This document shows positions 29,480 through 44,487 of a stretch of 64,000 nucleotides of DNA, piece by piece. Positions within the stretch are counted from its first letter, which is position 1; each line of letters opens with the position of its first letter. The position numbers were made by a program, and so were the translations under genes. Below the pieces are notes generated by a model that saw only the letters and a list, made by a program, of their open reading frames with translations, was not told where the DNA came from and ran no database searches. Origin of the DNA: Saccharopolyspora gregorii (GTDB taxonomy: Bacteria; Actinomycetota; Actinomycetes; Mycobacteriales; Pseudonocardiaceae); assembly GCF_024734405.1 (NCBI RefSeq), contig NZ_CP059556.1, forward strand, positions 3,658,001-3,722,000. The letters are read 5' to 3'.

Positions 29480-30313
29480 TCACCAGCGGACCGCGCGGAG
29501 GTAGTCGAAGCCGACGCCCGCGGTGCGCAGCGGATCGGTCGGCTGGTCGTGCTCGACGATGTACTCGCAGGCCGACCGGGCGTGCGCGAAGATCGCCGGG
29601 AAGTCCATGGTGCCGGTGCCCGGGTCGGCCATCTCGCCGTCGGGAGCGCGGTCCTTGACGTGCAGCTGGCGGATGCGGTCCCGTTCGGCGTCGATCAGCG
29701 CGAGCACGTCCTGGCCCGCGTGCACCGCCCAGTACAGGTCGAGTTCGAAGTGGACGAACCGGCGATCGGTGCGCTCCCGCAGCACGTCGTACGGGAGGAC
29801 GCCGTCCACCGGGGCGAATTCGTGGTCGTGGTTGTGGTAGCCGAACCGCAGCCCGGCGGCGCGGCACTTCCGGCCCGCTTCGTTGAGCTCGTCGGCGAAG
29901 ACGCGCCAGCCGTCGGCCGTGTCGAACACGGCGTGCGGGACGACGACCTGCCGGTGGCCCAGGGCGTGGGCGTCCTCGATGAGCGCGTCCACGCCGTCGT
30001 CGAGGTCGACGTGCCCGGAGGTGGCGCGCAGCCCGAGGTCGTCGAGGATCGTGCGGAATTCGGCGGCGGTGCGCCCGTGCAGGTCCGCCGTCTCGACGCT
30101 GCGGTACCCGAGGTCGGCGACCTGGCGCAGCGTGCCGGGCACGTCCTCGTCCAGCAGGGTGCGCAGCGTGTAGAGCTGGATGCTGATGGACTCGTGCGGG
30201 ATGCGGCCGCGTGGATGTCCGGTGGCCGCGGCGGCGGTGCCCGTCGCGGCGGTCGCGCCAGCGGCGGCCAGCAGGGCGGTGGTGTGCAGCAGGGTTCTGC
30301 GGGTGAGCGGCAT
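29480..30313 (-). CDS. Tat-exported sugar phosphate isomerase/epimerase (xylose-isomerase-like barrel)
   Basis: A 277-residue AP-endonuclease-2/xylose-isomerase-type TIM barrel with a twin-arginine leader (LTRRTLLHTTALLAAAG, then an Ala-rich stretch). Metal-site segments are RFGYHNHDHEF, FELDLYWAVHAG and QLHVKDR. Proteins of this class act on sugars or cyclitols outside the membrane or after export. It is the last gene of the Ebo-type operon, 25 bases after the phosphatase gene. The ATG has AAGGAC upstream. The export signal is notable because Ebo clusters are linked with moving precursors to the periplasm in cyanobacteria. Confidence 0.87.
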   Translation of the reverse strand: MPLTRRTLLHTTALLAAAGATAATGTAAAATGHPRGRIPHESISIQLYTLRTLLDEDVPGTLRQVADLGYRSVETADLHGRTAAEFRTILDDLGLRATSGHVDLDDGVDALIEDAHALGHRQVVVPHAVFDTADGWRVFADELNEAGRKCRAAGLRFGYHNHDHEFAPVDGVLPYDVLRERTDRRFVHFELDLYWAVHAGQDVLALIDAERDRIRQLHVKDRAPDGEMADPGTGTMDFPAIFAHARSACEYIVEHDQPTDPLRTAGVGFDYLRAVRW

Positions 30314-30338
30314 TGCTCGTCCTTTCGAAGCGTCGTTC

Positions 30339-31724
30339 TCAGCGGATTCCGTGCAGCTCCAGCAGCAGGTCGTGCACGTCGGTGGCGGCGAGGCGCCCGG
30401 TGCGCTCGACGGCGGCCGGGACGCGCGGGTCGGAGCACAGCAGCACCGGCCCGTAGTCCGGGGAGTCCGGCAGCCGGCCGTGCGAGCCGCGGACGGCCCG
30501 CCCGTCGAGCGGGACGACGTTCATGGCGTAGCGCAGACCGGCCTTCTTCTTCACCAGGTTCAGCGCGGCCTTGGCGCGCACCCACCGGTCGTCGGGATCG
30601 AGGAACAGTTCGGCCGGGTCGTAGCCGGGTTTGCGGTGGATCTCCACTCCCCCGGCGAAATCGGGTGCGCGGTCCCGGTCCAGCCAGTAGTAGTAGGTGA
30701 ACCAGGAATCGGGTTCGGCGACCGCGACGAGGTCCCCGGCGCGCGGGTGGTCCAGCCCGTAGCGGGCCTGCGCGGCGCGGTCGAGCACCTCGTCGACGCC
30801 GGGCAGCGCGGCGACCAGCGAGCGGACCCGGTCCACATCGGACTCGTCGCGGATGTGCAGGTGCGCGACCTGGTGGTCGGCGACGGCGAACGCGCGGGAG
30901 GCCCACGGGTCGAGGTACTCCATGCCCGCCTGGGTGTGCACGTCGAGCAGGCCTTCCGCGCGCAGCGCCCGGTTGAGGTGGACCTGCCGGTGCACCGGGG
31001 TGATGCCGTACTCGCTGAGCACCACCGTCGTCGCCCCGGCCTCGCGCGCATCGGCGAGCAGCCCGCCGAGCACTCCGTCGACCTCGGTGGCCGCGGTGCG
31101 GGCCTGCGGGCCGTGCGGGCCGTGGCGCTGCAGGTCGTAGTCGAGGTGCGGGACGTAGCACAGCAGCAGGTCCGGCCGGTGGTCGCGCAGCACGCGGCGG
31201 GCCGCGCCGGCGATCCACCGGGAGGAGGCCAGGCCCGCGGTCGGCCCCCAGTAGTGGAACAGCGGGAAGGTGCCGAGTTCGGCGGTGAGCTCGTCGTGCA
31301 GCTCCGGCGGCCGGGTGTAGCAGTCCGGGGACTTGCGCCCGTCGGCGTGGTAGATCGGGCGGGGCGTGACGGTCCGGTCGGTGCCCGCGCCCATCGCGTA
31401 CCACCAGCACACGTTGGCCGCGGTGTAGCCGGGGTGGTGGCGGCGCGCGGTGTCCCACACCTTGTCGCCGAGCACGAGACCGTTGTGCTGCCGCCAGAAC
31501 AGGACCTCGCCGAGCTCCCGGAAGTACCAGCCGTTGCCGACGATCCCGTGCTCGGCGGGCATCGTCCCGGTCAGGAAGGTGGATTGCACGCTGCAAGTGA
31601 CCGCGGGCAGCACGGTGCCCAGTTCGGCCTGCCACCCGTCGGCGGCGACGGACCGCAGGTTCGGCATGTGGGCGAGCAACGCGGGCGTGAGGCCCACGAC
31701 GTCGAGCAGCAGCACGGGTTTCAC
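30339..31724 (-). CDS. alkaline phosphatase-superfamily protein (nucleotide pyrophosphatase-like, EboF-type)
   Basis: A 461-residue metal-dependent phosphohydrolase of the nucleotide pyrophosphatase/phosphodiesterase branch. The nucleophile region is LPAVTCSVQSTFLTG; metal-site segments include PHLDYDLQRHG and LSEYGITPVHRQVHLN. There is no signal peptide, so it acts in the cytosol. Position and type match EboF in Ebo metabolite-traffic clusters. The GTG start at 31724 overlaps the EboE-type stop (GTGA), so its translation is coupled. The substrate is unknown; a phosphorylated or nucleotide-activated precursor is likely. Confidence 0.85.
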   Translation of the reverse strand: MKPVLLLDVVGLTPALLAHMPNLRSVAADGWQAELGTVLPAVTCSVQSTFLTGTMPAEHGIVGNGWYFRELGEVLFWRQHNGLVLGDKVWDTARRHHPGYTAANVCWWYAMGAGTDRTVTPRPIYHADGRKSPDCYTRPPELHDELTAELGTFPLFHYWGPTAGLASSRWIAGAARRVLRDHRPDLLLCYVPHLDYDLQRHGPHGPQARTAATEVDGVLGGLLADAREAGATTVVLSEYGITPVHRQVHLNRALRAEGLLDVHTQAGMEYLDPWASRAFAVADHQVAHLHIRDESDVDRVRSLVAALPGVDEVLDRAAQARYGLDHPRAGDLVAVAEPDSWFTYYYWLDRDRAPDFAGGVEIHRKPGYDPAELFLDPDDRWVRAKAALNLVKKKAGLRYAMNVVPLDGRAVRGSHGRLPDSPDYGPVLLCSDPRVPAAVERTGRLAATDVHDLLLELHGIR

Positions 31725-32806
31725 GAGACCTCCCGATCGTCGATCAGCCGCCGGGTGAACGCGAGTTCCGCGGCGATACCCGCCGCCAGGTCCGCGGGCG
31801 GCTCGGGCAGCACGGTCCAGGTGTAGGTCTCCACCTCGACGTCCGGCAGCGGACCGGGCAGGGCGGTGAGGACCTCGCGCAGCACCCCGGTCGTGGGCCG
31901 CACCGGCCCGTCGGCGGCCCAGTGCACCGGCACGTGGAAGTGCACGCGCCACGGCCCGGCCCCGGGGAGGTCGTCGAAGGCCCGTGGGAGGTCGTCGCAG
32001 CAGCTGATCCCGTCGGGACCGCGTTCCCGGACCTGGTGCAGGTAGCGGGGTTCGGCGTAGCGGGCGAGCTCGGCGCGAGCCGCGGCGGGATCCTCGACGT
32101 GCAGCGCGGCGGAGGCCTGCACCTTGACGACGTCGACACCGCTCGCCGCGATGGCGCGCACGGTCTCGGCGGGGTCGGCGAAGGACACCGCGAGGTGGCA
32201 GGTGTCCAGGCACAGTCCGATGTGCTCGGTGTCGCAACCGGGCAGCCAGGCGAGGGCGTCGGCGACGGTGTCCAGCCGGCAGCCGGGTTCGGGTTCGACC
32301 GCCAGGCGGATCCGGCGTCCCGTCCGCTCCGCCAGCAGAGCGAGCCCGCGCGCGGCCCGGTCCAGGTTCCGCCGCGCCGCGTCCTCGTCGTGGCCGGTCC
32401 ACGGCGTCCGCCAGCCGAGCGGCAGCGTGGAGATGCTGCCCCGGCCGCCTTCGGGCAGCAGCGCGGCGAGGACGTCGGCGCAGTGCAGCGTGTAGCGGAG
32501 CCGTTCCGGCGTGGTCCAGGACGGCTCGTACACCCGGTGCTTGACCACCGGCTGGTGGAACCCGCGGTGCGGGAAGGCGTTGAGGGTGCGCACCACGAGC
32601 CCGCGTCCGTCCAGTTCGGACCGCAACCCGCCCAGCGCGGCGGGGTCCGCGGCCAGCTGCTCCGCGAGGTCCGCCGCCAGCCACAGGCCGACGCCGAGCA
32701 CGTCGGCGCCCAGCGCCTCCCGGACCGGCTCGGCGTGCTCGGCGAGCTGGGCGCGGACCCCGTCGAGGTCTTCGGCCGGGTGGACGTTCGTGCAGTAGGA
32801 CAGCAT
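31721..32806 (-). CDS. eboE: metabolite traffic protein EboE-like (xylose-isomerase-like barrel)
   Basis: A 361-residue barrel beginning LSYCTNVHPAEDLDGV. The opening SYCTNVHP/AE and GLWLAADLAEQL are characteristic of EboE. Metal-site segments are AVEPEPGCRLDT, GLCLDTCHLAVSF and a late HFHVPVHW. It belongs to the sugar phosphate isomerase/epimerase fold, but its reaction is unknown. The ATG has GGGAG upstream, with a 4-base gap from the TatD-family gene. Symbol by family resemblance. Confidence 0.85.
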   Translation of the reverse strand: MLSYCTNVHPAEDLDGVRAQLAEHAEPVREALGADVLGVGLWLAADLAEQLAADPAALGGLRSELDGRGLVVRTLNAFPHRGFHQPVVKHRVYEPSWTTPERLRYTLHCADVLAALLPEGGRGSISTLPLGWRTPWTGHDEDAARRNLDRAARGLALLAERTGRRIRLAVEPEPGCRLDTVADALAWLPGCDTEHIGLCLDTCHLAVSFADPAETVRAIAASGVDVVKVQASAALHVEDPAAARAELARYAEPRYLHQVRERGPDGISCCDDLPRAFDDLPGAGPWRVHFHVPVHWAADGPVRPTTGVLREVLTALPGPLPDVEVETYTWTVLPEPPADLAAGIAAELAFTRRLIDDREVS

Positions 32807-32810
32807 CGGC

Positions 32811-33674
32811 TCACTCCCGGGATCCGCGGAGCACGGAGTTGTCGGCGAAGGTGGCCGCGTCGGCGCTGAACCCGGGCAGCGGCTCCAGGTTCAGCCGTCC
32901 GCTCTGCCCGTAGAAGGCGACCGGGTTCTGCCACAGCACCCGGTCGACGTCGGCGTCGGTGAAGCCGGCGCGCAGCATCGCCTCGCCGGTGGCGCGCGTC
33001 TTCAGCGGGTCCGAGCGGCCCCAGTCGGCGGCGGAGTTGACGACCATCCGCTCGGTGCCGTGCCGCCGCAGCAGCCGCACCATCCGCTCCTCGTCCATCT
33101 TGGTGTCCGGGTAGAGGGAGAAGCCCAGCCAGCAGCCGGTGCCGGCGACCAGCTCGACGGTGACCTCGTTGAGGTGGTCGACGAGCACGCGCTCCGGGGG
33201 CAGCCCGGATTCGCGGACCACGTCGAGGGTGCGGCGGGTGCCGGCGGGCTTGTCGCGGTGCGGGGTGTGCACCAGCACCGGCAGGTCGGCCGCGGCGGCG
33301 AGCTGGAGCTGCTGGGCGAACGCGTCGTCCTCCTCGGGGGTCATCGAGTCGTAGCCGACCTCGCCGACCGCGACGACCCCGTCCTTGGCCAGGTACCGGG
33401 GCAGGACGTCGAGCACCTCGCGACATCGGGGATCGTTGGCCTCCTTGGGGTTGAGCGCGACCGTGGCGTGGTGGCGGATGCCGAACTGCGCGGCGCGGAA
33501 GCGCTCCCAGCCGATCAGCGCGTCGAAGTAATCGGTGAACGAGGTGACGCCGGTGCGCGGCTGGCCGAGCCAGAACGCGGGTTCGACGAGGGCCCGGATC
33601 CCGGCGGCGTGCATCGCCTCGTAGTCGTCGGTGGTGCGGGACGTCATGTGGACGTGCGGTTCGAAGATGCGCAT
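32811..33674 (-). CDS. eboB: TatD-family metal hydrolase (EboB-like)
   Basis: A 287-residue TatD/amidohydrolase-type barrel: HVH near the N-terminus (residues about 7-9), GEVGYDS with the metal-bridging Glu, LVHTPHRD, LVDHLNE and NSAADWGRSDP. It lacks features of the DNA-repair TatD enzymes and resembles EboB, a predicted hydrolase of Ebo clusters. A GTG three bases upstream of the ATG overlaps the preceding stop; the ATG at 33674 has better spacing from GGAGG and is used. Confidence 0.85.
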   Translation of the reverse strand: MRIFEPHVHMTSRTTDDYEAMHAAGIRALVEPAFWLGQPRTGVTSFTDYFDALIGWERFRAAQFGIRHHATVALNPKEANDPRCREVLDVLPRYLAKDGVVAVGEVGYDSMTPEEDDAFAQQLQLAAAADLPVLVHTPHRDKPAGTRRTLDVVRESGLPPERVLVDHLNEVTVELVAGTGCWLGFSLYPDTKMDEERMVRLLRRHGTERMVVNSAADWGRSDPLKTRATGEAMLRAGFTDADVDRVLWQNPVAFYGQSGRLNLEPLPGFSADAATFADNSVLRGSRE

Positions 33675-35065
33675 CACGCCTCCAGGAGTGCGCGGGCGTC
33701 ACCGGGGACGTCGCGCCCGGCGGCGCGGCGTTCGGCGGCGAAGTCGGTGACCATGCGGCGGAGTTCCTCGTCGGCGCGCCGCGGCAGCCCGGCGACGGCG
33801 GCGAGCGGCACGCCGGTGAACAGGCACTTGAGGACGCCGTGCCGCCAGGAGTGGTCGTCGAGGTGCCGGGCGAACGGCCCCATCGCGGCGGCGATGAGCC
33901 GGATGTCGTTGGCGCGCAACGCATCCCGCACCAGCTCCAGGCCCGCTCCCACCACGTCCGGGCCGAGCCCGTCGAGCGCGCGGAGCACGCCGCGCCGTTC
34001 GGCGTCGTCGCCGTGCCGGTACAGTGCCGCGACCTCCGCCACCAGCCGGTCGGGTTCCGCGGTGTCGGCGAGGGCGCGCAGCAGCCGCCCGCGCACCCGG
34101 TCGTCGACGGTGCCGTGCACGAGCCCGTGCGGATCGTCCCGGTCGAGGGGGCGGCGGCCGACGTGACGGCCCACCGCGGGGAACAGGGTCGCGATGCTCG
34201 CCGGGTCCCGGCGCACCGCCGCCAGCGCCTCGGCCACCCACGGCTGCCGGAGCGCGCCGATCGCGCGGCGCGCGACCTGCGGGGCGGCGTGGCCGTGCCG
34301 GGGCAGTTCGACGGCGGCGAGGCCGGTGTACCCGATGCCGGCCAACGCCTCCAGGGTGCCGGGGAGGTCGAGCTCGCCGTCGCCGAACTCCAGGTGCTCG
34401 TGCACCCCGGGCCGCATGTCGTCGAGCTGCACGTGCACCAGGTGGTCCCGCAACCGCCAGGCGCACCCGGCGGCGGTGTCCTGCTCCACCGCGACGCAGT
34501 GGCCGACGTCGAGGGTGATGCCGAGCGGTTCCGGCGCGCCGAGCCGGTCGAGCACGGCCAGCGCCGCGTCCACCGTGTCGACGAGCATGCCGGGTTCGGG
34601 TTCGAGCCCGAGCCGCACGCCGTGGCGCGCGGCTTCCTCGACGACCTGCGCGCTGCCGTCCAGCAACCGCTCGAACGCAGCGTGCTCGTCCACTTCGGAC
34701 GGTCGAATTCCGGACCAGAACGACACGACGTCGGATCCGAGATCGGCGGCGACGCGCACCGCGCGCCGCAGGAAGTCCACCCGGCGCCCGCTGTCCGCGG
34801 AGACCAGCGTCGGGTGGTGCTTGCGGTGCGGGTCGAGGAGGTAGCGCGCCCCGGTCTCGACCACCACCGACAGGCCGAACCGGTCGAGCAGGCCGCGCAC
34901 CCGGCGCACCTGCTCGGCGAGACCGGCGTCGAACGGGTCGAGCCGGTGGTGGTCGAGGGTCAGCGCGACCCCGTCGTAGCCGAGCTCGGCGATCACCCGC
35001 AGCGCGTCGTCGAGCCGGTGATCCCCGAACCCGTTGGTGCCGTAGCCGAAGCGCAGCGCCGTCAC
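33674..35065 (-). CDS. fusion of xylose-isomerase-like barrel and EboA domain
   Basis: 463 residues in two parts. Residues 1-265 are a sugar phosphate isomerase/epimerase barrel (FGYGTNGFGDHRLDDALRV, GLEPEPGMLVDT, ITLDVGHCVAVE, HVQLDDMRPG). Residues about 275-463 resemble the EboA domain (RLLRALADTAEPDRLVAEVA, ALRANDIRLIAAAMGPFARH, DDHSWRHGVLKCLFTGVPL). In other clusters EboA is usually separate, so the fusion itself suggests that barrel and EboA act together. The GTG start overlaps the EboC-type stop. EboA has no known catalytic activity. The domain boundary is judged by eye. Confidence 0.85.
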   Translation of the reverse strand: MTALRFGYGTNGFGDHRLDDALRVIAELGYDGVALTLDHHRLDPFDAGLAEQVRRVRGLLDRFGLSVVVETGARYLLDPHRKHHPTLVSADSGRRVDFLRRAVRVAADLGSDVVSFWSGIRPSEVDEHAAFERLLDGSAQVVEEAARHGVRLGLEPEPGMLVDTVDAALAVLDRLGAPEPLGITLDVGHCVAVEQDTAAGCAWRLRDHLVHVQLDDMRPGVHEHLEFGDGELDLPGTLEALAGIGYTGLAAVELPRHGHAAPQVARRAIGALRQPWVAEALAAVRRDPASIATLFPAVGRHVGRRPLDRDDPHGLVHGTVDDRVRGRLLRALADTAEPDRLVAEVAALYRHGDDAERRGVLRALDGLGPDVVGAGLELVRDALRANDIRLIAAAMGPFARHLDDHSWRHGVLKCLFTGVPLAAVAGLPRRADEELRRMVTDFAAERRAAGRDVPGDARALLEA

Positions 35066-35913
35066 GTCGCCGACACCACCTTCCCGGAGATCCGGACCAC
35101 CGGCGGGAGCGCCGCCAGCAGCGCCGCCGTGCCGAGGTCGTGCCGGGCGGTCAGCGCGATCTGCAGCGGCACCATGCCGTGGATGCCCGCGCGGGTCGCC
35201 GCGCGCGCGGTCGGCGCGTCCGGGTTCCGGCAGGCGCGCAGCTGCACCTCGCCGACCCGCGCCGCGTACCAGGCGGCTGCGGCGAGCGCCGCGATCCGGT
35301 GCAGCGGGGAGGCGCAGCGCCCGCCCACCGCGGCGACCGCCACCAGGGCGGTGGTGCCCGCGGCCGCGGCGGCCGTGACCGGGTCGGTGCCGCGGACCTC
35401 GCCGCGGGAGAGCGCGGTGACCGAGCAGGTGTGCGCGGCGAGCAGCGCCGCGGCGGGCCACGCCGCCCGGGCCCCGCCCGCCCCGAGCAGCACGTCGAGC
35501 CCGCGGCAGGCGGCCATCGCCACCGGCCCGGCGGGGCCGGTCTTGAACACCACGTCGTAGCCGACGACGGCCGCGGCGAGCGCCGCCACCAGCCCGGCCT
35601 CGGCCGACCCGACGACCGCCGCGGCGGCGGCCCCGGAACCCGCGAGCACCGCTGCGATCCCGAGCGCGGCACCGGCGCCGAGCCGTCCGGACGGGATGGG
35701 CCGCTCCGGGCGCTCCGCGGCGTCGAGCTCGCGGTCGGCCCAGTCGTTGAGCGCCATGCCCGCCCAGTACAGCGCCACCGAGGACACCGGCAGCAGCGCA
35801 CGGCGCCCCCGCAGCGGACGTCCGGCGGCCGCGGCGCCGACCGCGGTGTCGCCGAGCGCGGTCAGCGCGGCCGGGGCGCGGGTCAGCGCGATCAGCGCGC
35901 GCAGCCGGCTCAT
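35062..35913 (-). CDS. eboC: UbiA-like prenyltransferase (EboC-like)
   Basis: A 283-residue integral membrane protein with about eight hydrophobic helices and one UbiA aspartate motif, NDWADRELD, at 56-64, followed by RPIPSGRL. The second aspartate motif of true UbiA enzymes is reduced to GYDVVFKTG. UbiA proteins join a polyprenyl diphosphate to an acceptor; EboC proteins are the membrane component of Ebo clusters. The ATG overlaps the stop of the inositol-phosphate synthase gene, which suggests a cyclitol product as acceptor (inference). Confidence 0.87.
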   Translation of the reverse strand: MSRLRALIALTRAPAALTALGDTAVGAAAAGRPLRGRRALLPVSSVALYWAGMALNDWADRELDAAERPERPIPSGRLGAGAALGIAAVLAGSGAAAAAVVGSAEAGLVAALAAAVVGYDVVFKTGPAGPVAMAACRGLDVLLGAGGARAAWPAAALLAAHTCSVTALSRGEVRGTDPVTAAAAAGTTALVAVAAVGGRCASPLHRIAALAAAAWYAARVGEVQLRACRNPDAPTARAATRAGIHGMVPLQIALTARHDLGTAALLAALPPVVRISGKVVSAT

Positions 35914-37100
35914 CGCGCACCTCCGCCGCTGAGCGAGCGCACCCACTCGTGCAGCTCGCGGACCTGGTGGTCGAAGCGGTGCCGATCCGGGTCGCCACCG
36001 GCGCCGAACGGGGCCTTGAAGAAGCACCCGAGCGCGGTCAGCGGCCCGCTGCACCCGGCGTGGTGCCCCAGCGCGACGAGCCGGGTCAGGTCCAGCACCA
36101 GCGGCGCCGCCAGCGCCGAGTCGCACGCGGACCAGGTCAGCTGCAACGTCACCGGCGAGCCGAGGAAGCCCTCGGCGTGCACGTGGTCCCACGCCACCTT
36201 CGTCTGGCCGAGGTCCGGCACGTTGTCGATGTGCAGCGGTGCGGCGACCTCGTCGCCGAGCAGGGCGTGCAGCCCGCGGGACTTCGCGGTCAGCTTGCTC
36301 GCCGCGGTGCCCGGGTCGGCGAGCGTCGCGCCGTCACCCCCGCCGAGCAGGTTGGTGCCCGCCCAGGACCGGACCGCCAGCGCGCGTTCGGCGAACATCG
36401 GCGCGAGCGCGGTGCGCAGCAAGGTCTCGCCGGTCTTGCCGTCGGCGCCCGCGTAGGGCAGGCCGCGCTGCCGCGCCAGGGCGCCCAGCGCGGGGACCGA
36501 GATCCCGGTGGACGGGGTGAACTCCACGTACGGGCAGCCCGCCCGCACCGCCGCGCGGGCGGCCACGACGCTGGCCGGGACGGCCTCGTCCGCGGCCAGC
36601 ACCGCGTCCAGGTCCGCGGCGGTCAGCAGCCGCGCCCCGGCCGGCCACGGCGGTTCGGTGGAGGCGACGTCGACCACCACGACCCGGTCCAGGTCGTGGC
36701 GCCGCGCGAACGCGGACATGTCCCCGGCCAGCCGGACGGCGGCGTCCGCCCCGGTCTCGGCGCGGGTCGCCGGGTCGAAACCGGGTCGCAGCTCCGCTTC
36801 CGCCTCGGCCAGCTGCGGTGCCACCGCGGCCACCACCCCGGCGGGCAGCACGCCCGCCGCCACCAGGCCGTCCGCGGTCTTGCGCAGATCAGCGGCGGAG
36901 ATGTCGTGCCCGCCGACCACGATCTCGTCCCAGCCCGGCAACGGCGCCGAGCCGAACGCGGGCAGCTCGGTGACGCAGCCCGTCGGCGGCACCAGGCCGG
37001 CCCGCAGCGCGGCCAGTCCGACGATCGCCGTGGTCGCCACCGAACCGCGCGCGCCGATCAACCACATGCCGGTGCGACCCGGCCGTGCGTGGTCCCCCAT
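35910..37100 (-). CDS. inositol-3-phosphate synthase family protein
   Basis: A 396-residue protein of the myo-inositol-1-phosphate synthase family. It has the NAD-binding IGARGSVATT at the start, EFTPSTGISVPAL, the active-site GADGKTGETLL, and the C-terminal HIDNVPDLGQTKVAWDHV. The family converts glucose-6-phosphate to inositol-3-phosphate with tightly bound NAD. ATG at 37100 with AGGAGG eight bases upstream; it is the first gene of the Ebo-type operon. In other Ebo clusters the corresponding place is held by a 3-dehydroquinate-synthase-like cyclase (EboD), so a different sugar-phosphate cyclase appears to be used here. It may be a diverged paralogue and not the housekeeping enzyme. Confidence 0.87.
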   Translation of the reverse strand: MGDHARPGRTGMWLIGARGSVATTAIVGLAALRAGLVPPTGCVTELPAFGSAPLPGWDEIVVGGHDISAADLRKTADGLVAAGVLPAGVVAAVAPQLAEAEAELRPGFDPATRAETGADAAVRLAGDMSAFARRHDLDRVVVVDVASTEPPWPAGARLLTAADLDAVLAADEAVPASVVAARAAVRAGCPYVEFTPSTGISVPALGALARQRGLPYAGADGKTGETLLRTALAPMFAERALAVRSWAGTNLLGGGDGATLADPGTAASKLTAKSRGLHALLGDEVAAPLHIDNVPDLGQTKVAWDHVHAEGFLGSPVTLQLTWSACDSALAAPLVLDLTRLVALGHHAGCSGPLTALGCFFKAPFGAGGDPDRHRFDHQVRELHEWVRSLSGGGAR

Positions 37101-37162: not shown

Positions 37163-39664
37163 TCAACGGTCGCCGCGCGCCCGCGCCGACCGGTCGTCCG
37201 GGGGCACGGGCCGGGACACCCCGTCCCCGGTGAAGTGCACCGCGTCGAGCGCGAACAGCTCGGTGCCCTCGCCGCGGAACACGAAGAACAGCGCGCCGGA
37301 ACCGCCCGGGTCGAGCACCGGGGACGACGGCACGTCCACGTGCTCACCACCGGTGCCCGCGATCTCGACCGACTGCAGCAGTTCCCCGTCCACGGCACCG
37401 GCCCGCACTTCGATCACGCCGCCGTCCCCGGCCGCCGCGACGCGGTAGCCGATGCCGTCGACACCGGTCAGGTCCACCGGGTCGATCGAGATCCAGTCGC
37501 CGTCCTCGACGGCACCGACCTCCCGGCCACCGGCCGCATCCGGGTTCGCCACGACCTCGACGCCCTCGGCGTCGGTGAAGAACTCGGCCTGCTTCTCCGC
37601 GGGCTGCAGCACCACGCGGTCGCTGCCGGTCACCGGCGGCAGGTCTTCGGCACCGCCGTCGGTGTAGTCGGCGGTGAGCACGCCGAACACGTTCGCGTCC
37701 AGCCCGTGGCCCTCGTCGGCCGGGGTCTCGATGACGCCTTCGCAGCCGCGTTCCTCCTTGAGCGGGTGCGCGTGCGTGTCGTGGCCGAGCGCGTAGCTGA
37801 CGGCGACCCGGGAGCAGTCGATCCGCTCGTCCTCGGCGTCGGTGACGCTGACCCGGAACGGAACCTCCTCGCCGAAGGCGAACACCCCGCCGTCCGGCGG
37901 GAGTTCCACCCGCACCTGCGGCGGCGTGTTACCGACGACGATCTGCACGCTGGCGTACCCGGTCTTGCCGGTCTCATCGGTGACGGCGAGCTTCGCGGTG
38001 TGCGCGCCGCGCTCGTCGTAGGTGAACGACACCGGGCCCGGTTCGGTCGAGTCGACGACGCCGTCGCCGGTGAAGTCCCACGCGTAGCTCAGCTCGCCGC
38101 CGTCGGGATCCGCGGTGCCCGCGGGGTCGAAGCCGACCGTCAGCGGTGCCTGCCCGGCGGAGGTGACGTCGGCGGCGAGATGCGGCCGCGGGGTCTTCGC
38201 GTCCGGGCTGTGCTCGATGCGGTACAGCGCCGAGTCGTCCGCCCCGCCGAAGTAGCTGGAGCCGTAGTCGAGCACGTACAGCGCGCCGTCCGGGCCGAAC
38301 TCGACGTTCATCGGCCGCACCAGGTCCATCGAGTCGAAGAACGGCCGGATCGCCGCCAGCGACCCGTCCTGCCCGACCTCGAACTCCTTGATCCAGCCGC
38401 GGTCCCACTCGTAGTTGAACGCCTTCCCGTCGTAGTGCGCCGGGAACTTCAGCGGCTCGTCCAGGTCCGGGTCGAAGTGGTACACCGGTCCGCCCATCGG
38501 CGATTCCGGTCCCGCGCCGAGTTCGGGGACCGAGTCGTCGTCGTAGGCGAGCCACGCGGGTTGCGCCGGCGGCAGCTCAACGAGCCCGGTGTTGTGCGGG
38601 CTCTCGTTGCGCGGCGCCGCGCAGTCGAACGGCTCGCCGGACTCGCCGGTCGCGAAGTCGTGGTCGACGAACGGTTCGTCGTCACCGATGCAGTACGGCC
38701 AGCCCAGGTTCTGCGGTTCCCGGATCAGGTCGTACTCGACGATGCCGCCGGGTCCCCGATCCGGGTCGGCGGCGCCCGCGTCCGGCCCGTACTCGCCGAG
38801 GTGGATCCAGCCGGTGCGCTCGTCCACGGCGAACCGGAACGGGTTGCGCAGGCCCATCGCGTAGATCTCGGGCCGGGTCCGCTCGGTTCCGGGCGGGAAC
38901 AGGTTGCCGTCGGGGACGGTGTAGGTGCCGTCCGGTTCGACGTGGATGCGCAGGACCTTGCCGCGCAGGTCGTTGGTGTTGCCCGCGGTGCGCTGCGCGT
39001 CGAACGCCGGGTTGCGCTCGGGGCGTTCGTCGATCGGCGTGTAGCCGTCCGAGGAGAACGGGTTGGTGTCGTCCCCGGTGGACAGGTACAGGTTCCCGTC
39101 GGCGTCGAAGTCGATCTCGCCACCGGCGTGGCAGCAGGTGCCGCGGTTCGCCGGGACGCGCAGGATCTCCTGCCCGGCGTCGAGGTCGAGCGCGCCGTCG
39201 TCGGTGAGCGGGAACCGGGACAGCGAGTTGTAGCCGTCGAACGGCGCGAAGTCCGCCGCGGTGCCCTCCTCGGGGGCGTCGCCCTCCGGGGTGTCCAGCG
39301 GGGGCGCGTAGTACAGGTACACCCACCGGTTCTCGGCGAAGCCGGGGTCCACGGCGACGCCCTGCAACCCGTCCTCGTCGTGGTTGTAGACCGGCAGGTG
39401 CGCGGCCAGCGTGGTGGTGGCGTCCGGCGTGGTGAGGAAGACGTCGCCGTCGCGGGAGGTGTGCAGCACGCGGCGGTCGGGCAGCACCGCCAGCGCCATC
39501 GGCTCGCCCAGCTTGGTCTCACCTCGGGCCAGCGTGATCTGGTCGAACGCGGTGTCCGGTGGTGGCTCGGCGGTCGCGGGCGGCAGGGTCAGGGCGGTCG
39601 CGGTCACGACCGCGAAGGTCGCGCAGGCGACCGATCCGGGTAATCGCACCAGGAGGCTCCTCAT
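37163..39664 (-). CDS. secreted PQQ-type sugar (sorbosone) dehydrogenase with PKD and carbohydrate-binding domains
   Basis: An 833-residue exported protein. A signal peptide covers residues 1-32 (hydrophobic VACATFAVVTATALT, cleavage near ATAEP). A six-bladed glucose/sorbosone dehydrogenase propeller spans about 40-490 (VLHTSRDGDVFL, DGLQGVAVDPGF, NRGTCCHAGGEIDFD, DLRGKVLRIH, YAMGLRNPFRFAVD, NVEFGPDGALYVLDYG). A PKD domain follows at about 505-585 (YAWDFTGDGVVDSTEPGP). The C-terminus (about 700-815) resembles a CBM6-type domain (EDGDWISIDPVDLTG). It probably oxidises or binds a sugar outside the cell. It follows the ABC importer genes in the same direction, which suggests linked use of that sugar. 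Confidence 0.88.
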   Translation of the reverse strand: MRSLLVRLPGSVACATFAVVTATALTLPPATAEPPPDTAFDQITLARGETKLGEPMALAVLPDRRVLHTSRDGDVFLTTPDATTTLAAHLPVYNHDEDGLQGVAVDPGFAENRWVYLYYAPPLDTPEGDAPEEGTAADFAPFDGYNSLSRFPLTDDGALDLDAGQEILRVPANRGTCCHAGGEIDFDADGNLYLSTGDDTNPFSSDGYTPIDERPERNPAFDAQRTAGNTNDLRGKVLRIHVEPDGTYTVPDGNLFPPGTERTRPEIYAMGLRNPFRFAVDERTGWIHLGEYGPDAGAADPDRGPGGIVEYDLIREPQNLGWPYCIGDDEPFVDHDFATGESGEPFDCAAPRNESPHNTGLVELPPAQPAWLAYDDDSVPELGAGPESPMGGPVYHFDPDLDEPLKFPAHYDGKAFNYEWDRGWIKEFEVGQDGSLAAIRPFFDSMDLVRPMNVEFGPDGALYVLDYGSSYFGGADDSALYRIEHSPDAKTPRPHLAADVTSAGQAPLTVGFDPAGTADPDGGELSYAWDFTGDGVVDSTEPGPVSFTYDERGAHTAKLAVTDETGKTGYASVQIVVGNTPPQVRVELPPDGGVFAFGEEVPFRVSVTDAEDERIDCSRVAVSYALGHDTHAHPLKEERGCEGVIETPADEGHGLDANVFGVLTADYTDGGAEDLPPVTGSDRVVLQPAEKQAEFFTDAEGVEVVANPDAAGGREVGAVEDGDWISIDPVDLTGVDGIGYRVAAAGDGGVIEVRAGAVDGELLQSVEIAGTGGEHVDVPSSPVLDPGGSGALFFVFRGEGTELFALDAVHFTGDGVSRPVPPDDRSARARGDR

Positions 39665-39764: not shown

Positions 39765-40811
39765 TCACGAGGCGAACCCGACGTCCAGGTACTGGTCGAC
39801 GTTCTGCCGGGTCACCACGGCCGAGTAGGTCGTGATCGCGCGGGGGATCTCGTGCTCGGCGAGGTCGCCCATCCCGCGCGCTTGGCCGAGCAGCCGGGCC
39901 AGCGAGATCGCCGAGGAGCACATCGACGGGTTGTAGAGCACCGTCGCCTGCACCACGCCGTCGCCCGCCTTGATGCGGTCCATCATGTTGCGCGAGCCGG
40001 CGCCGCCGACCAGGAAGAAGTCGTCTCGCCCGGCGGCCTGCACCGCGGCGAGCACGCCGATGCCCTGGTCGTCGTCGTGGTTCCACACCGCGTCCAGCCG
40101 CGCCGCGGCCTGCAGCAGGTTCGTCGCCTGCCGCTCGCCGGATTCGGCGGTGAAGTCGGCGGCGACGCGCCGCGATACCCGGATCCCGTGCCGGGCGAGG
40201 CCGTCGCGGAACCCGGCGCTGCGCTCCTGGGTCAGCGGCAGCGAATCGGTGCCCGCGATCTCGGCGACGACCGGGTCTGTGACGCCGCGGCGCCGCAGCT
40301 CGGCGGCGATGTGCTCGGCGGCGTTGACGCCCATGCCGTGGTTGTCCCCGCCGATCCACACCCGGTAGGCGTCGGCGGAGTCGAAGACGCGGTCCACGTT
40401 GACCACCGGGATCCCGGCGCGGGTGGCGCGGCGAGCCACGTCGGTCAGCGCCTTGCCGTCGGCGGGCAGGATGACCAGCACGTCGACCTGCTCGTTGATC
40501 AGCGTCTCGACCTGGGCGACCTGCTGGTTGACGTCGCTGCTGCCCTCGGTGGGGCGGAACGTGACGTCCGGCAGCGCTTCGGCTTGCGCGCGGGCGTTGG
40601 TGGTCATGGCCGCCATCCAGCCGTGATCGGCGGCGGGCGCGGAGAACCCGATGGTCACCGGGGCGCCGGGGGCCGCGCCGTCACCTCCGGCGGCGACGGC
40701 GGCCGGTCGTTGCTGCTGCGGCGGATCGTTGGCGAGGCACCCGGTCAGCAGCGCGGTCGCGCCGAGTGCGCCGGTGCCGAACAGGAATCCACGACGAGGA
40801 GTTGCGGACAT
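39765..40811 (-). CDS. sugar ABC transporter substrate-binding lipoprotein (RbsB-like)
   Basis: A 348-residue type-1 periplasmic-binding protein. The leader has a twin-arginine pair and a lipobox (MSATPRRGFLFGTG, then LLTGC with Cys 25), so it is probably a Tat-exported lipoprotein anchored outside the membrane. The RbsB-like core includes GFSAPAADHGWMAAM, EQVDVLVILPADGKALTDVA, VPVVNVDRVF-type segments and AVWNHDDDQGIGVLAAV. Ligands of such proteins are pentoses, hexoses or inositol. It is the last gene of the importer set, 27 bases after the permease gene. Confidence 0.9.
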   Translation of the reverse strand: MSATPRRGFLFGTGALGATALLTGCLANDPPQQQRPAAVAAGGDGAAPGAPVTIGFSAPAADHGWMAAMTTNARAQAEALPDVTFRPTEGSSDVNQQVAQVETLINEQVDVLVILPADGKALTDVARRATRAGIPVVNVDRVFDSADAYRVWIGGDNHGMGVNAAEHIAAELRRRGVTDPVVAEIAGTDSLPLTQERSAGFRDGLARHGIRVSRRVAADFTAESGERQATNLLQAAARLDAVWNHDDDQGIGVLAAVQAAGRDDFFLVGGAGSRNMMDRIKAGDGVVQATVLYNPSMCSSAISLARLLGQARGMGDLAEHEIPRAITTYSAVVTRQNVDQYLDVGFAS

Positions 40812-40838
40812 GGCGGTCTCCGGGAGGGGAGGAGGGGT

Positions 40839-41837
40839 TCAGCGGAGGGCGGTGCCGCGGCGGCGCGTGCGGGCCTGCAGCAGCACGGCGAGCACGATGA
40901 TCGCGCCCTTGACGATGTTCTGAACGTCGGTTTCGAGGTTGTTGAGCGTGAACACGTTGCTCAACGTCGTGAAGATCAGCACCCCGAGCACGGTGCCGGT
41001 CATGCTGCCGCGCCCACCGGCGAGCAGCGTGCCGCCGATGACGACGGCGGCGATCGCGTCCAGTTCGTAGTACAGGCCGTTGGTGGAGGCCCCGGAGGTC
41101 GTGCGCGCCACCACCATGATCGCGGCGATGGCGCAGCAGAACCCGGCGAGCGCGTACACCAGCGCGAGGTGCCTGCGCACGTCGATCCCGGCCAGCCGGG
41201 CGGCTTCGGCGTTGCCGCCGACGGCCAGCGTGCGCCGCCCGAACGTGGTGCGGTTGAGCAGCGTCCAGCCGCCGGCGAACACGGCGGCGAAGATCCAGAT
41301 CAGCACCGGGACGCCCAGCAGGTCGGCCTGGAACACCGCGCCGAACGCGGGGACGTCGACGACCTGCGTCTGCCTGCCGCTGATCCGCTCGGCCAGCCCG
41401 CGCGCGGAGGCCATCATCGCCAGCGTCGCGATGAACGGCACCACCCGCCCGTAGGCGACGAGCAGCCCGTTGACCAGCCCGCACCCGGTGCCCACCAGCA
41501 GCGCGCACCCCACCATCGCGAACGCCCCGTACGACTGGGTGGCCCAGGTGGTCATCCACACGCTGCACAACGCGACCATCGAGCCGACGGACAGGTCGAT
41601 ACCGCCCGCTGAGATCACGAAGGTCATGCCGACGCTGACCACGCCGATGGCGGCGGCCAGCCGCAGCACGGTGGAGATGTTGCCCTCGGTGAGGAACGCG
41701 TCCGGCCGGGTCGCGTAACCGACCGCGCACAGTCCGACGAGGACGAACACCAGCGCGGTCAGCCGGATGTCCGCCCGCGCCCACCAGCGGCTCAGCCGCG
41801 AGGGGCGGGTCGAGGCGGCGAGAGCCTGCTCGTTCAT
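40839..41837 (-). CDS. sugar ABC transporter permease (RbsC-like)
   Basis: A 332-residue polytopic membrane protein of the ribose/xylose/inositol permease family. It has VGMTFVISAGGIDLSVGSMVAL near the N-terminus and GRRTLAVGGNAEAARLAGIDV (the cytoplasmic loop contacting the ATPase), then AVVIGGTLLAGGRGSMTGTVLG. About eight to ten hydrophobic helices are visible. The ATG overlaps the ATPase stop and has GGAGGG upstream. One permease gene implies a homodimeric channel. Confidence 0.92.
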   Translation of the reverse strand: MNEQALAASTRPSRLSRWWARADIRLTALVFVLVGLCAVGYATRPDAFLTEGNISTVLRLAAAIGVVSVGMTFVISAGGIDLSVGSMVALCSVWMTTWATQSYGAFAMVGCALLVGTGCGLVNGLLVAYGRVVPFIATLAMMASARGLAERISGRQTQVVDVPAFGAVFQADLLGVPVLIWIFAAVFAGGWTLLNRTTFGRRTLAVGGNAEAARLAGIDVRRHLALVYALAGFCCAIAAIMVVARTTSGASTNGLYYELDAIAAVVIGGTLLAGGRGSMTGTVLGVLIFTTLSNVFTLNNLETDVQNIVKGAIIVLAVLLQARTRRRGTALR

Positions 41838-43342
41838 CGCGCACCCTCCACGACCAGGTCCAGCACATCGGATTCGGTGAGCTCACCGGCGGCGGCGGTG
41901 CGCACCGCGGTGCCGTCGCGCAGCACCAGCACCCGGTCGGCCAGCGCCAGCACCTCCGGGATGTCGCTGGAGACCACCACGATCGCGAGGCCTTCCGCGG
42001 CGAGTCCCCGCACCAGCGCGTACAGCTCGGCCCGGGCACCGACGTCGACGCCGCGGGTGGGTTCGTCCAGCAGCAGCACGCGGCAGCCGCGCAGCACCCA
42101 CCGGCCGATGACGGCCTTCTGCTGGTTGCCGCCGGAGAACGCGGCGATCGGCCGGTGCGGGTCGGCGGGGCGCAGCTGGAGCCGGTCGACGATCTGCCGC
42201 GTCGCGGCGATCTCCCGGGCGCGGTCGACGAATCCGAACCGGCTGAACCGCGCCAGCGCGGCCAGGGTGGTGTTCGCGGCCAGCGACAGCCGCGGCAGCA
42301 GCGCCTGGTCCTTGCGCTCCTCCGGGGTGAGCCCGATCCCCGCGGCCACGGCGGCCGGGACCGAGCCCGGCCGCACCCGGCGGCCGTCCACTCGCACTTC
42401 CCCGGAATCCGGTGCCCTGGCGCCGAAAACGGTCTCCAGCAATTCGCTGCGGCCGCAGCCGACGAGACCGGCGATGCCGACGATCTCGCCCGCGTGCGCG
42501 GTGAGGCTCACGTCCGCGAACTCGCCGCGGCGCCCGAGCCCGCGCACCTCCAGCACCGGGCGCCCGGTGGCGGAACCGCCCGCCGCCTCGACCTCCGGTG
42601 GCACGCCGCCCGTCATCAGGGCGACGAGCTCGCCGGTGGTCACCTCCCCCACCGGGAGCCCGGCGGCGACCGTGGCGCCGTCCTTGATGACCGTGACGCG
42701 GTCGGCGATGCGGCGGATCTCCGCCATGCGGTGGGAGATGTAGACCACCGCGACGTCGTCGGCGGTGAGCTCGCCGATGACGCGGAACAGGTTGTCCACC
42801 TCGCCCGCGGACAGCGACGCGGTGGGCTCGTCCATCACGATCAGCCGCGCCTCGTAGTGCAACGCCCTGGCCATCGACACCAGCTGCCGCACCGCCGCGG
42901 GCAGGCTCCCGACCGCGCGGTCCGGGTCGATCTCCGGATGTCCCAGCCGGGTCAGCAGCCGCGTCGCCTCGGCGCGCGCCCGGCCGCGGCGGGTGAACCC
43001 GGCGGTGGCCCGCTCGTCGCCGAGGAAGATGTTCTCGGCGACGCTCAACCCCGGCACCAGGTCCAGTTCCTGGTACATCGCGGCGATGCCCCGCCGCAGC
43101 GCGCCCGCCGGGGAGCCGGGCGCGACCTCCGCGCCCAGCCAGCGGATCGTGCCGCCGTCCGCGGGGTGCGCGCCGGAGAGCACCTTGATCAGCGTGGACT
43201 TCCCGGCGCCGTTCTGCCCGAGCAGGCAGTGCACCTCGCCCGGGCGCACCCGCAGGTCCACCCCGTCCAAGGCGCGCACGCCCGGGAACACCTTGACGAT
43301 GCCGGACATCACCAGCACGTCGTCCGCCCGCGGCCGGGTCAT
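41834..43342 (-). CDS. sugar ABC transporter ATP-binding protein (RbsA-like)
   Basis: A 502-residue double ATPase. The first half has Walker A GQNGAGKST and Walker B LIVMDEPTASL, with a divergent signature region LPAAVRQLVSMARAL. The second half has a degenerate Walker A (GLVGCGRSELL), the signature SGGNQQK and Walker B LLLDEPTRGVDVGA. One functional and one altered site is usual in this family. The ATG at 43342 overlaps the Gfo/Idh stop. The order Gfo/Idh, ATPase, permease, binding protein forms one coupled operon. Confidence 0.93.
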   Translation of the reverse strand: MTRPRADDVLVMSGIVKVFPGVRALDGVDLRVRPGEVHCLLGQNGAGKSTLIKVLSGAHPADGGTIRWLGAEVAPGSPAGALRRGIAAMYQELDLVPGLSVAENIFLGDERATAGFTRRGRARAEATRLLTRLGHPEIDPDRAVGSLPAAVRQLVSMARALHYEARLIVMDEPTASLSAGEVDNLFRVIGELTADDVAVVYISHRMAEIRRIADRVTVIKDGATVAAGLPVGEVTTGELVALMTGGVPPEVEAAGGSATGRPVLEVRGLGRRGEFADVSLTAHAGEIVGIAGLVGCGRSELLETVFGARAPDSGEVRVDGRRVRPGSVPAAVAAGIGLTPEERKDQALLPRLSLAANTTLAALARFSRFGFVDRAREIAATRQIVDRLQLRPADPHRPIAAFSGGNQQKAVIGRWVLRGCRVLLLDEPTRGVDVGARAELYALVRGLAAEGLAIVVVSSDIPEVLALADRVLVLRDGTAVRTAAAGELTESDVLDLVVEGAR

Positions 43343-44487
43343 CTGCCGCCTCCGACCGGTGTCCACCTGCTGTGGTCGGCGGCGCTGCGCTGCACCGCGT
43401 CGAGCACCCGCTGCACCCGCAGCCCGGCGGCGAAGTCCGGGCTGGGGCTGGTGCGCTCGCCGATGGCGGTCACGAAGTCCCGCAGCTGGTGGGTGAACGT
43501 GTGCTCGTAGCCGAGCACGTGGCCCGGCGGGTACCAGGCGCGCAGGTACGGGTGATCGGCCTCGGTGGCCAGGATGCGGCGGAACCCCGCGGTGGCCGCG
43601 TCCTCGGTCGCGTCGTAGAAGGACAGCTCGTTCATCGACTCGAAGTCGAACGCGAGGCTGCCCGCGCTGCCGTTGACCTCGACGCGCAACCCGTTCTTGC
43701 GCCCCGCGGCGTAGCGGGTCGCCTCGAAGGTGCCGAGCGCGCCGCCGCCGAAGCGGGCGGTGAACATCGTCGCGTCGTCCACCGTCACCGGGCCGGTGCG
43801 GTCGGTGCCCGCGCCCAGCGGCCGTTCGGCCACGAAGGTGTCGACCAGGCCGCAAACGCTGGTGATCTCGTCGTCCAGCAGGAACTGGGCGAGGTCGACC
43901 AGGTGCGCGCCCAGGTCGCCGAGCGCCCCGGATCCGGCGCGTTCGGCCTGCAACCGCCAGGTCAGCGGGGCCTGCGGGTCGAGCAGCCAGTCCTGCAGGT
44001 ACTGGGCGCGCACGTGCCGGATCCGGCCCAGCCTGCCCTGCGCGACCAGCGTCCTCGCCAGCGACAGCGCGGGAACCCGGCGGTAGTTGAACCCGACCAT
44101 CGACCGGATCCCCCGCTGCCGCGCGCGTTCCGCGGCGTCGGCCATCGCGACCGCTTCGGCGACCGAGTTCGCCAGCGGCTTCTCGCACAGCACGTGCTTG
44201 CCGGCTTCCAGGGCGCTCATCGCGATCTCGGCGTGGCTGTCGCCGGGGGTGCAGATGTCGACGACGTGCACGTCGTCGCGCACCAGCGCGGATTTCCAGT
44301 CGTCGCTGGCCTCCCGCCAGCCGAGCCGGGCGGCGGCGTGGTGCACGGCGTCCTTGCGGCGCCCGCACAGCACCACCATCTCCGGCCGGACCGGGAGGTC
44401 GAAGACCCGCCCCACGGTCCGCCACGCCTGCGAGTGGACCACTCCCATGAAGGCGTGGCCCACCAGGGCGACACCGAGTGCGTTCAT
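43339..44487 (-). CDS. Gfo/Idh/MocA-family oxidoreductase
   Basis: A 382-residue NAD(P)-dependent dehydrogenase with a Rossmann start (GVALVGHAFMGVVHSQAW; the GxGxxG is relaxed to GHAFMG), the conserved EKPLANS after strand 5, and GDLGAHLVDLAQFLL (residues that hold the sugar). Relatives include inositol 2-dehydrogenase and glucose-fructose oxidoreductase. The ATG has AGGAGG upstream. It lies between the ROK repressor and the importer ATPase, so it probably carries out the first oxidation of the imported sugar or cyclitol. Confidence 0.9.
   Translation of the reverse strand: MNALGVALVGHAFMGVVHSQAWRTVGRVFDLPVRPEMVVLCGRRKDAVHHAAARLGWREASDDWKSALVRDDVHVVDICTPGDSHAEIAMSALEAGKHVLCEKPLANSVAEAVAMADAAERARQRGIRSMVGFNYRRVPALSLARTLVAQGRLGRIRHVRAQYLQDWLLDPQAPLTWRLQAERAGSGALGDLGAHLVDLAQFLLDDEITSVCGLVDTFVAERPLGAGTDRTGPVTVDDATMFTARFGGGALGTFEATRYAAGRKNGLRVEVNGSAGSLAFDFESMNELSFYDATEDAATAGFRRILATEADHPYLRAWYPPGHVLGYEHTFTHQLRDFVTAIGERTSPSPDFAAGLRVQRVLDAVQRSAADHSRWTPVGGGR

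Follow-up and report, generated by a model that had tools for sequence, protein, structure and literature searches.

A window of 64,000 nucleotides from Saccharopolyspora gregorii (NCBI RefSeq assembly GCF_024734405.1, contig NZ_CP059556.1, positions 3,658,001 to 3,722,000) contains an ebo operon whose first gene, in the place of the sugar-phosphate cyclase EboD, encodes a homologue of inositol-3-phosphate synthase (INO). We consider it likely that INO functionally replaces EboD and, less firmly, judge it probable that in INO-type ebo operons INO and a partner TIM barrel, Abar, together do the job of EboD and supply the cyclitol of the ebo product. This reading draws on the gene content of the operon, the exclusion of the two cyclases within our sample, the partner barrel, the kept catalytic residues of INO and, with caveats, a repeated exchange of the cyclase.

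An ebo operon headed by an inositol-phosphate synthase homologue

The operon lies on the minus strand and reads from 37100 to 29480 in the order INO, EboC, Abar::EboA, EboB, EboE, EboF and a TIM barrel with a twin-arginine (Tat) leader:

35910..37100, minus strand: INO, inositol-3-phosphate synthase homologue, first operon gene, in EboD's place (PF07994 168 bits, PF01658 99 bits)
35062..35913, minus strand: EboC, UbiA-type membrane prenyltransferase of the SCO3242 family (NF045897 304.7 bits, cut-off 260)
33674..35065, minus strand: fusion of Abar (xylose-isomerase-like barrel, N-terminal) and an EboA domain (C-terminal) (PF01261, NF035938)
32811..33677, minus strand: EboB, TatD-type metal hydrolase (PF01026 45.4 bits; our own EboB profile 493 bits)
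31721..32806, minus strand: EboE, TIM barrel, "metabolite traffic protein EboE" (NF035939 414.9 bits, cut-off 250)
30339..31730, minus strand: EboF, type I phosphodiesterase/nucleotide pyrophosphatase family (PF01663 217 bits; our own EboF profile 784 bits)
29480..30313, minus strand: TIM barrel with Tat leader (TRRTLL, read from the sequence), operon end (PF01261)

The original prediction, made from the letters of the window, had listed INO with EboA, B, C, E and F and without EboD, had placed INO first and overlapping EboC, and had put a Tat-exported barrel at the operon end (30313-29480). Domain and profile matches bear out this list at each of these places, and the INO stop and the EboC start overlap as ATGA. 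For INO we chose the ATG at 37100 as the start; the longest open reading frame begins with TTG at 37166. By open-reading-frame coordinates, EboC/EboA and EboA/EboB overlap by 4 nt each and EboE/EboF by 10 nt, so the description as one overlapping operon holds for several junctions but not for those between EboB and EboE (gap of 4 nt), between EboF and the Tat barrel (25 nt), and between INO and a preceding gene for a glucose/sorbosone-dehydrogenase-type (GSDH) protein (62 nt). In the fusion protein, PF01261 covers residues 23-273 and the EboA model NF035938 residues 321-460, the latter with 155.6 bits against a cut-off of 50. The order INO-EboC-Abar-EboA-EboB-EboE-EboF was found again in 92 of the 99 INO-type clusters surveyed below, and the arrangement in the window is therefore not a matter of chance.

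As expected of an ebo cluster, EboE scores above its cut-off, EboA is present (as the fusion), and EboB, EboC and EboF are clustered with EboE. The operon EboC reaches 134.5 bits on the EboC model (NF035940), below the equivalog cut-off of 250, and passes that of the sister model SCO3242_trans; on our own EboC profile it scores 290 bits. Our own EboD profile gave no match inside the window's ebo cluster, and because EboD is missing we file the operon as an ebo variant rather than as a standard ebo cluster.

Mutual exclusion of INO and EboD in the sampled ebo clusters

Ebo clusters were collected by EboE searches, which gave a match in 24 of 60 relatives, in 14 of 296 genomes from the phylum, in 98 of 394 from the class, in 3 of 200 from the phylum of a Gemmatimonadota metagenome-assembled genome (MAG) and in 6 of 251 from the phylum of Herpetosiphon; two of these 6, G627 and G651, were left out. 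From the class search, 86 of the 94 places above the EboE cut-off were included and places below it left out. A plasmid collection gave 48 records with an EboE match, from which 11 regions were used, and a scan of named genomes contributed the 80 out of 575 confirmed relatives that ranked best for similarity to the EboE of Gemmatirosa. The 208 loci, including the window, were classified with profiles built from the named loci and the window (INO above 150 bits, EboD above 250 bits), and 25 loci in which EboE was joined by fewer than two of EboA, B, C and F were dropped, leaving 183 clusters. Outside these 183 stand four haloarchaeal loci (L225, L230-L232), four loci of a YcaO-containing cluster (L226-L229) and one contig of the MAG bin G353 (L236).

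Among the 183 clusters, 99 contain INO, 70 contain EboD, 14 contain neither and none contains both, which is the mutual exclusion that the original prediction had proposed as its test. Actinomycetota genomes, the window included, account for 105 clusters (96 INO, no EboD, 9 neither), and the named set (the best 80 of 575) for 59 with EboD, 5 with neither and none with INO; the plasmid clusters comprise 2 with INO (Gemmatirosa and Streptomyces) and 9 with EboD, and the Gemmatimonadota/Chloroflexota genomes 1 with INO and 2 with EboD. INO is thus the rule in the sampled Actinomycetota, and EboD is the rule in the other sampled phyla. The further claim of a functional replacement is upheld by the absence of clusters with both cyclases and by whole genomes without an EboD-grade gene (see below), but the exchange is not one for one, since INO comes with a second TIM barrel. 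The original prediction had passed over this barrel, the mycothiol-type inositol-phosphate synthase elsewhere in the genome and the prevalence of the INO variant in the sampled Actinomycetota.

Some of the clusters with neither cyclase end at contig ends (e.g., L031 and L060), and L087 has a partial EboD barely below the threshold. L067 and L084 come from Acetobacteraceae/Rhodospirillales MAGs and have the order EboE-C-A-B-F, with neither EboD nor INO within the stretch examined. L035 and L161 (genomes G185 and G1083, family code f18) are second ebo clusters in which Abar is present and INO absent; upstream of L035 lie an FAD-dependent desaturase-like gene and an inositol-monophosphatase-like gene (read from the sequence). 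Lone actinobacterial EboE genes (L021, 8868-14798; L101, 4760-10197) stand beside 2-oxoacid-dehydrogenase-like and peptidase-like genes (read from the sequence), and EboE paralogues outside ebo clusters may have a catabolic context too.

Abar accompanies INO

Abar (at least 150 bits) is present in 95 of the 99 INO clusters, in 6 of the 14 clusters with neither cyclase and in none of the 70 EboD clusters. Where both Abar and EboA were found in INO-type clusters, they are fused in 19 and separate in 74; actinobacterial EboA hybrids are mentioned as "data not shown" by Yurchenko et al. 2016 (PMC5133447). An Abar-like profile built from 15 proteins has MJ1311 as its best match (98 bits), ahead of IolI (75 bits) and sugar epimerases, and its structure matches include Art22. 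IolI is a protein of inositol catabolism. Four residues (E, D, H and E) do not vary within this set of 15 proteins, and we take them to be residues typical of this metal-dependent fold.

A different kind of cluster, which contains YcaO, also has INO and, approximately 4-5 kb away from it, a relative of Abar (44-49% identity). In Roseomonas, the pair is accompanied by YcaO, methyltransferase, glycosyltransferase and PIG-L deacetylase genes, in Hymenobacter by YcaO and PIG-L genes, and on two Methylobacterium plasmids Abar and INO stand together among unannotated neighbours. Two of these loci were laid out gene by gene:

L226, 2473-11785: YcaO cluster with INO, Gfo/Idh oxidoreductase, YcaO, Abar homologue and PIG-L deacetylase
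L227, 3214-11915: YcaO cluster with the same five genes

L226 additionally contains a methyltransferase, an MBL-fold hydrolase and a glycosyltransferase, and in L228 and L229 INO and Abar were recognized by profile matches. The YcaO cluster resembles mycothiol logic plus a YcaO step, and our literature search found no paper on it. Because the INO/Abar pair recurs in this YcaO-containing pathway, Abar most likely acts on the product of INO.

The cyclase was probably exchanged at least twice

Two INO clusters, in Gemmatirosa kalamazoonensis (L047) and in genome G429 (L221), have the order Abar-INO-EboC-EboF-EboB with EboE divergent and no EboD. Their remaining genes are closer to those of EboD-type clusters than to those of actinobacterial INO-type clusters. 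Among the rows compared, the EboB of L047 shares 75% identity with EboD-type Chloroflexota clusters versus at most 46% with actinobacterial INO-type clusters, and its EboC 63% with the partial EboC of an EboD-type Gemmatimonadetes MAG contig versus 42%; the corresponding values are 62 versus 45% for EboE and 75 versus 59% for EboF. L221 behaves likewise (EboB 71 versus 45%, EboC 59 versus 40%, EboE 57 versus 42%, EboF 74 versus 58%). Both clusters carry EboG, which in L047 directly precedes EboB and takes the place of the absent EboA; EboG was described as an alternative to EboA by Yurchenko et al. (PMC5133447).

In a four-gene tree of 30 hand-picked rows (12 INO, 18 EboD; the rows were picked after earlier trees, the INO group was named before), these two INO clusters fall inside the EboD-type side with an SH-aLRT support of 100. 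On the same four genes and 30 rows, a single origin of the INO type is rejected (delta lnL 142.6, p-AU 6.7e-5). A first likelihood test of the single origin (p 3e-60) was discarded as unfair, since two actinobacterial rows with neither cyclase had been counted as outsiders. Given the four-gene test and the EboG finding, two exchanges are the likely minimum, and the cyclase was probably exchanged at least twice.

The operon INO and the other cyclases of the genome

The operon INO has both Pfam domains and the catalytic Lys, Asp and Asn residues of inositol-phosphate synthases. The nearest solved sequence is Ino1 of 1u1i (191.6 bits), which we take to be the A. fulgidus protein. Positions matching D225, N255, K274, K278, K306, D332 and K367 of 1u1i are unchanged in all 99 ebo INO sequences and in all 13 other sequences compared. 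N255, K278 and K367 are each Ala in another solved entry of the 1u1i protein, which we read as engineered changes, and the remaining four positions are presumably catalytic as well.

It is unlikely that the ebo INO makes, instead of inositol 3-phosphate, another cyclitol phosphate from a different sugar phosphate or with a different ring size. Such an activity would suit the distance of the operon INO from the genome's own INO1 and its mere 24.6 bits on the mycothiol INO1 equivalog model (TIGR03450, cut-off 638), and a five-membered-cyclitol-phosphate synthase (6k96) belongs to the same superfamily; however, 6k96 matches with 50.6 bits only, far behind 1u1i, and the catalytic residues are kept. 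In the tree, the ebo INO sequences form a separate branch, far from the genome's INO1.

The operon INO is not the cell's only inositol-phosphate synthase, a candidate role that we rejected because the genome has a second, mycothiol-type INO1 (681.7 bits on TIGR03450). With the EboD profile, two genes of the 3-dehydroquinate (DHQ)-synthase superfamily were found in the genome, with 155 and 195 bits, and full-length EboDs score approximately 490-650 bits (537-562 in two EboD-bearing genomes searched whole). No EboD-grade gene was found in the window's genome or in any of the 17 INO-type genomes searched whole (maximum 199 bits). An EboD elsewhere in the window's genome was accordingly rejected: one of the two genes (L143) passes the AroB model (346.5 bits, cut-off 305), and the other (L142) passes no cut-off. 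L142 (1471-2775) reaches 224 of 333 bits on the PRK06203 model and 223 of 305 on the AroB model, and a match of similar score occurs in one other genome (G207). The mycothiol INO1 and the sub-EboD scores in the genome indicate that the operon INO is neither a housekeeping enzyme nor backed by an EboD elsewhere.

These results bear on the notion that INO is a co-regulated supplier of inositol for ordinary use, such as phosphatidylinositol or mycothiol, and has nothing to do with the ebo product. In its favour, the name of the Pfam family is that of myo-inositol-1-phosphate synthase, and 9 of the 105 actinobacterial clusters show no INO. Against it stand the separate mycothiol-type INO1, the mutual exclusion of INO and EboD, and the replacement of EboD by INO and Abar in Gemmatimonadota as well, and we regard it as very improbable.

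A diverged version in haloarchaea

Plasmids of Halocatena, Natronococcus and Halobaculum carry the order TatD (EboB)-barrel-UbiA-barrel together with INO and an EboF-type gene, and the clusters of this kind that we located are as follows:

L225, 3408-9709: haloarchaeal plasmid cluster
L230, 4272-10945: haloarchaeal plasmid cluster
L231, 3237-9787: haloarchaeal plasmid cluster
L232, 4010-9739: haloarchaeal plasmid cluster (Haladaptatus)

Both barrels are Abar-like, INO is present in three of the four, and our own profiles gave no match to EboA or EboD in these clusters. The UbiA protein of L225 stays below the cut-offs of the EboC model (178 bits) and of the SCO3242 model (164 bits). The haloarchaeal plasmid cluster is a diverged relative of the ebo clusters rather than a member, and a third, diverged INO version.

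Surroundings of the operon

The gene preceding INO is a probable operon-associated gene, and its product is probably secreted, judging from a leader read from the sequence:

37163..39664, minus strand: GSDH-type protein with PKD and CBM6 domains (PF07995, PF18911, PF03422)

The best NCBIfam match of the Tat barrel is the IolE model (52.5 bits, cut-off 290), and within the genome the GSDH protein and the Tat barrel each match only themselves (E 0.001). GSDH homologues (at least 100 bits) lie near 56 of the 96 actinobacterial INO clusters and Tat-barrel homologues (at least 50 bits) near 50 of them; neither is found near any of the 59 named-set EboD clusters (the best 80 of 575), and distant versions in other phyla would escape these profiles, which were built from the window alone. 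Among the 9 EboD plasmid clusters, none has a GSDH homologue and one has a Tat-barrel homologue, and the 8 actinobacterial lone-EboE loci have neither. A quinone-dependent dehydrogenase is annotated near a Salipiger EboD cluster (L052) and was left uncounted by the GSDH profile. In a Streptomyces plasmid cluster, a gene of the ScyD/ScyE family (255.4 bits, cut-off 80) directly precedes INO. Surroundings of the GSDH, Tat-barrel and ScyD/ScyE kinds would suit a step outside the membrane. A periplasmic sugar-binding protein, followed by an apparent ABC permease and ATPase, is encoded upstream of the GSDH gene and on its strand (window 39765-44425), and these ABC-type genes may feed the operon.

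A proposed role for INO and Abar

In the route that we propose, INO would convert glucose 6-phosphate to inositol 3-phosphate in an NAD-dependent reaction, as its kept catalytic residues suggest, and Abar would isomerise, epimerise or dehydrate the cyclitol, which is consistent with its co-occurrence with INO and its kinship to IolI and epimerases. EboC would prenylate the cyclitol or something derived from it: the operon EboC has the Asp-rich prenyl-diphosphate motif (NDWADRELD), and the pattern NDxxDxxxD is kept in 97 of 97 EboC sequences of INO-type clusters and 64 of 66 of EboD-type clusters. To judge from their families, EboF, EboB and EboE may carry out shared phosphate-ester and hydrolytic or isomerising steps; a structure search with EboF gave matches limited to phosphonoacetate hydrolase and PafA. 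The membrane-held product would work at or across the cytoplasmic membrane, as proposed for Nostoc, and might perhaps meet the GSDH-type protein and the Tat barrel outside. Whether the ring is carried into the prenylated product we consider evenly balanced, and it is possible, if doubtful, that inositol phosphate itself is the direct acceptor of EboC.

Alternatively, EboC could prenylate an aromatic or other non-cyclitol acceptor, and INO or EboD would make a separate cyclitol part (a head group or co-substrate) that is joined elsewhere. Scytonemin precursors are aromatic. Tryptophan and p-hydroxyphenylpyruvate are named as such precursors in PMC7997468, and UbiA-297, a flavobacterial EboC, farnesylated 6 of 14 aromatic acceptors in vitro, with 8-hydroxyquinoline-2-carboxylic acid as the best (PMC9235831). 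The acceptors described in that part of PMC9235831 are aromatic, with no cyclitol among them, which says nothing of a preference over cyclitols. In the argument of Yurchenko et al. (PMC5133447), EboC is possibly the sole step joining two molecules, and we hold this alternative to be rather unlikely.

Several further observations, together with the aromatic acceptors of UbiA-297, weigh against the replacement of EboD by INO and Abar. The loci are not independent, with near-copies among Nostoc and actinobacteria and several genomes with two clusters. Some clusters with neither cyclase are uncut by contig ends (L025, L035, L046, L161 and L197, and outside Actinomycetota L067, L084 and L119), so a nearby cyclase is not always needed. 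Four of the 99 INO clusters (L148, L150, L172 and L177) are without Abar, and the Haladaptatus plasmid (L232) has the rest of the haloarchaeal cluster and no INO within the stretch examined. A test on EboE and EboF with 61 rows, from which the two rows with neither cyclase were left out, does not reject a single origin of the INO type (p-AU 0.254), and single genes may have been mixed between clusters. Finally, the Gemmatimonadetes MAG bin G353 holds both cluster types, on two short contigs with different EboC genes. Joining these contigs into one two-cyclase cluster was rejected, as the EboC pieces differ in their shared homologous stretch and the contig ends have no exact overlap; the bin may contain mixed strains.

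Ebo genes span many phyla, and the cyclase swap points to a ring-shaped polyalcohol at the core of their product. Movement of the scytonemin precursor into the periplasm depends on ebo genes, as does the resistance of a pseudomonad to nematode predation (PMC6282210), and EboD as a cyclitol maker was a guess from its superfamily (PMC5133447). That a non-homologous enzyme with known chemistry has repeatedly replaced EboD speaks, independently of that guess, for a cyclitol as the common need of ebo pathways, and it makes the guess open to labelling in actinobacteria. The replacement further suggests that one pathway exists in several versions, among them the Streptomyces "SCO3242" operon, the ebo genes of cyanobacteria and the haloarchaeal plasmid operon. 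Tentatively, and with appreciable doubt, ebo could be seen as a general pathway to a prenylated-cyclitol membrane lipid or carrier in bacteria and haloarchaea, in which the ring step is swappable (EboD, or INO with an IolI-like barrel), the INO version yields a prenyl-inositol, and Abar turns inositol (phosphate) into a stand-in for the EboD product, with both rings accepted by EboE, B and F. We know of no description of prenyl-inositol as a membrane lipid class.

Comparison with known systems

The solved inositol-phosphate synthases 1u1i and 1jkf, the latter presumably the yeast protein, have their family and catalytic residues in common with the ebo INO and differ from it in operon context. 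The EboD-type ebo or EDB clusters described in PMC5133447 and PMC6282210 (Klicki et al. 2018) resemble the window in that EboA (or EboG), EboB, C, E and F are tightly packed; their cyclase, EboD, belongs to the DHQ-synthase superfamily, whereas the window has an unrelated NAD-dependent INO and an extra TIM barrel. The word "inositol" is absent from the main texts of these two papers, and our literature search, which mostly left subscription papers outside its range, found no report of an inositol-phosphate synthase in an ebo cluster. The BE-40644 pathway, as outlined in PMC5133447, resembles our proposal in that a cyclitol made by a sugar-phosphate cyclase is then farnesylated, presumably by a UbiA-type enzyme; it differs in its EEVS-type cyclase and another UbiA branch, and EboA, B, E and F go unmentioned for it in that outline. 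The Streptomyces SCO3242 loci have the same prenyltransferase family and are annotated in plasmid records beside an inositol-3-phosphate synthase and ebo genes. PMC3610822 lists SCO3242 (putative transferase) and SCO3243 (myo-inositol phosphate synthase) alongside the CDA cluster, and this listing draws no link to ebo or to cyclase replacement. The Streptomyces SCO3242/SCO3243 locus, which for S. coelicolor we take from this listing, is probably an operon of the same type as that of the window.

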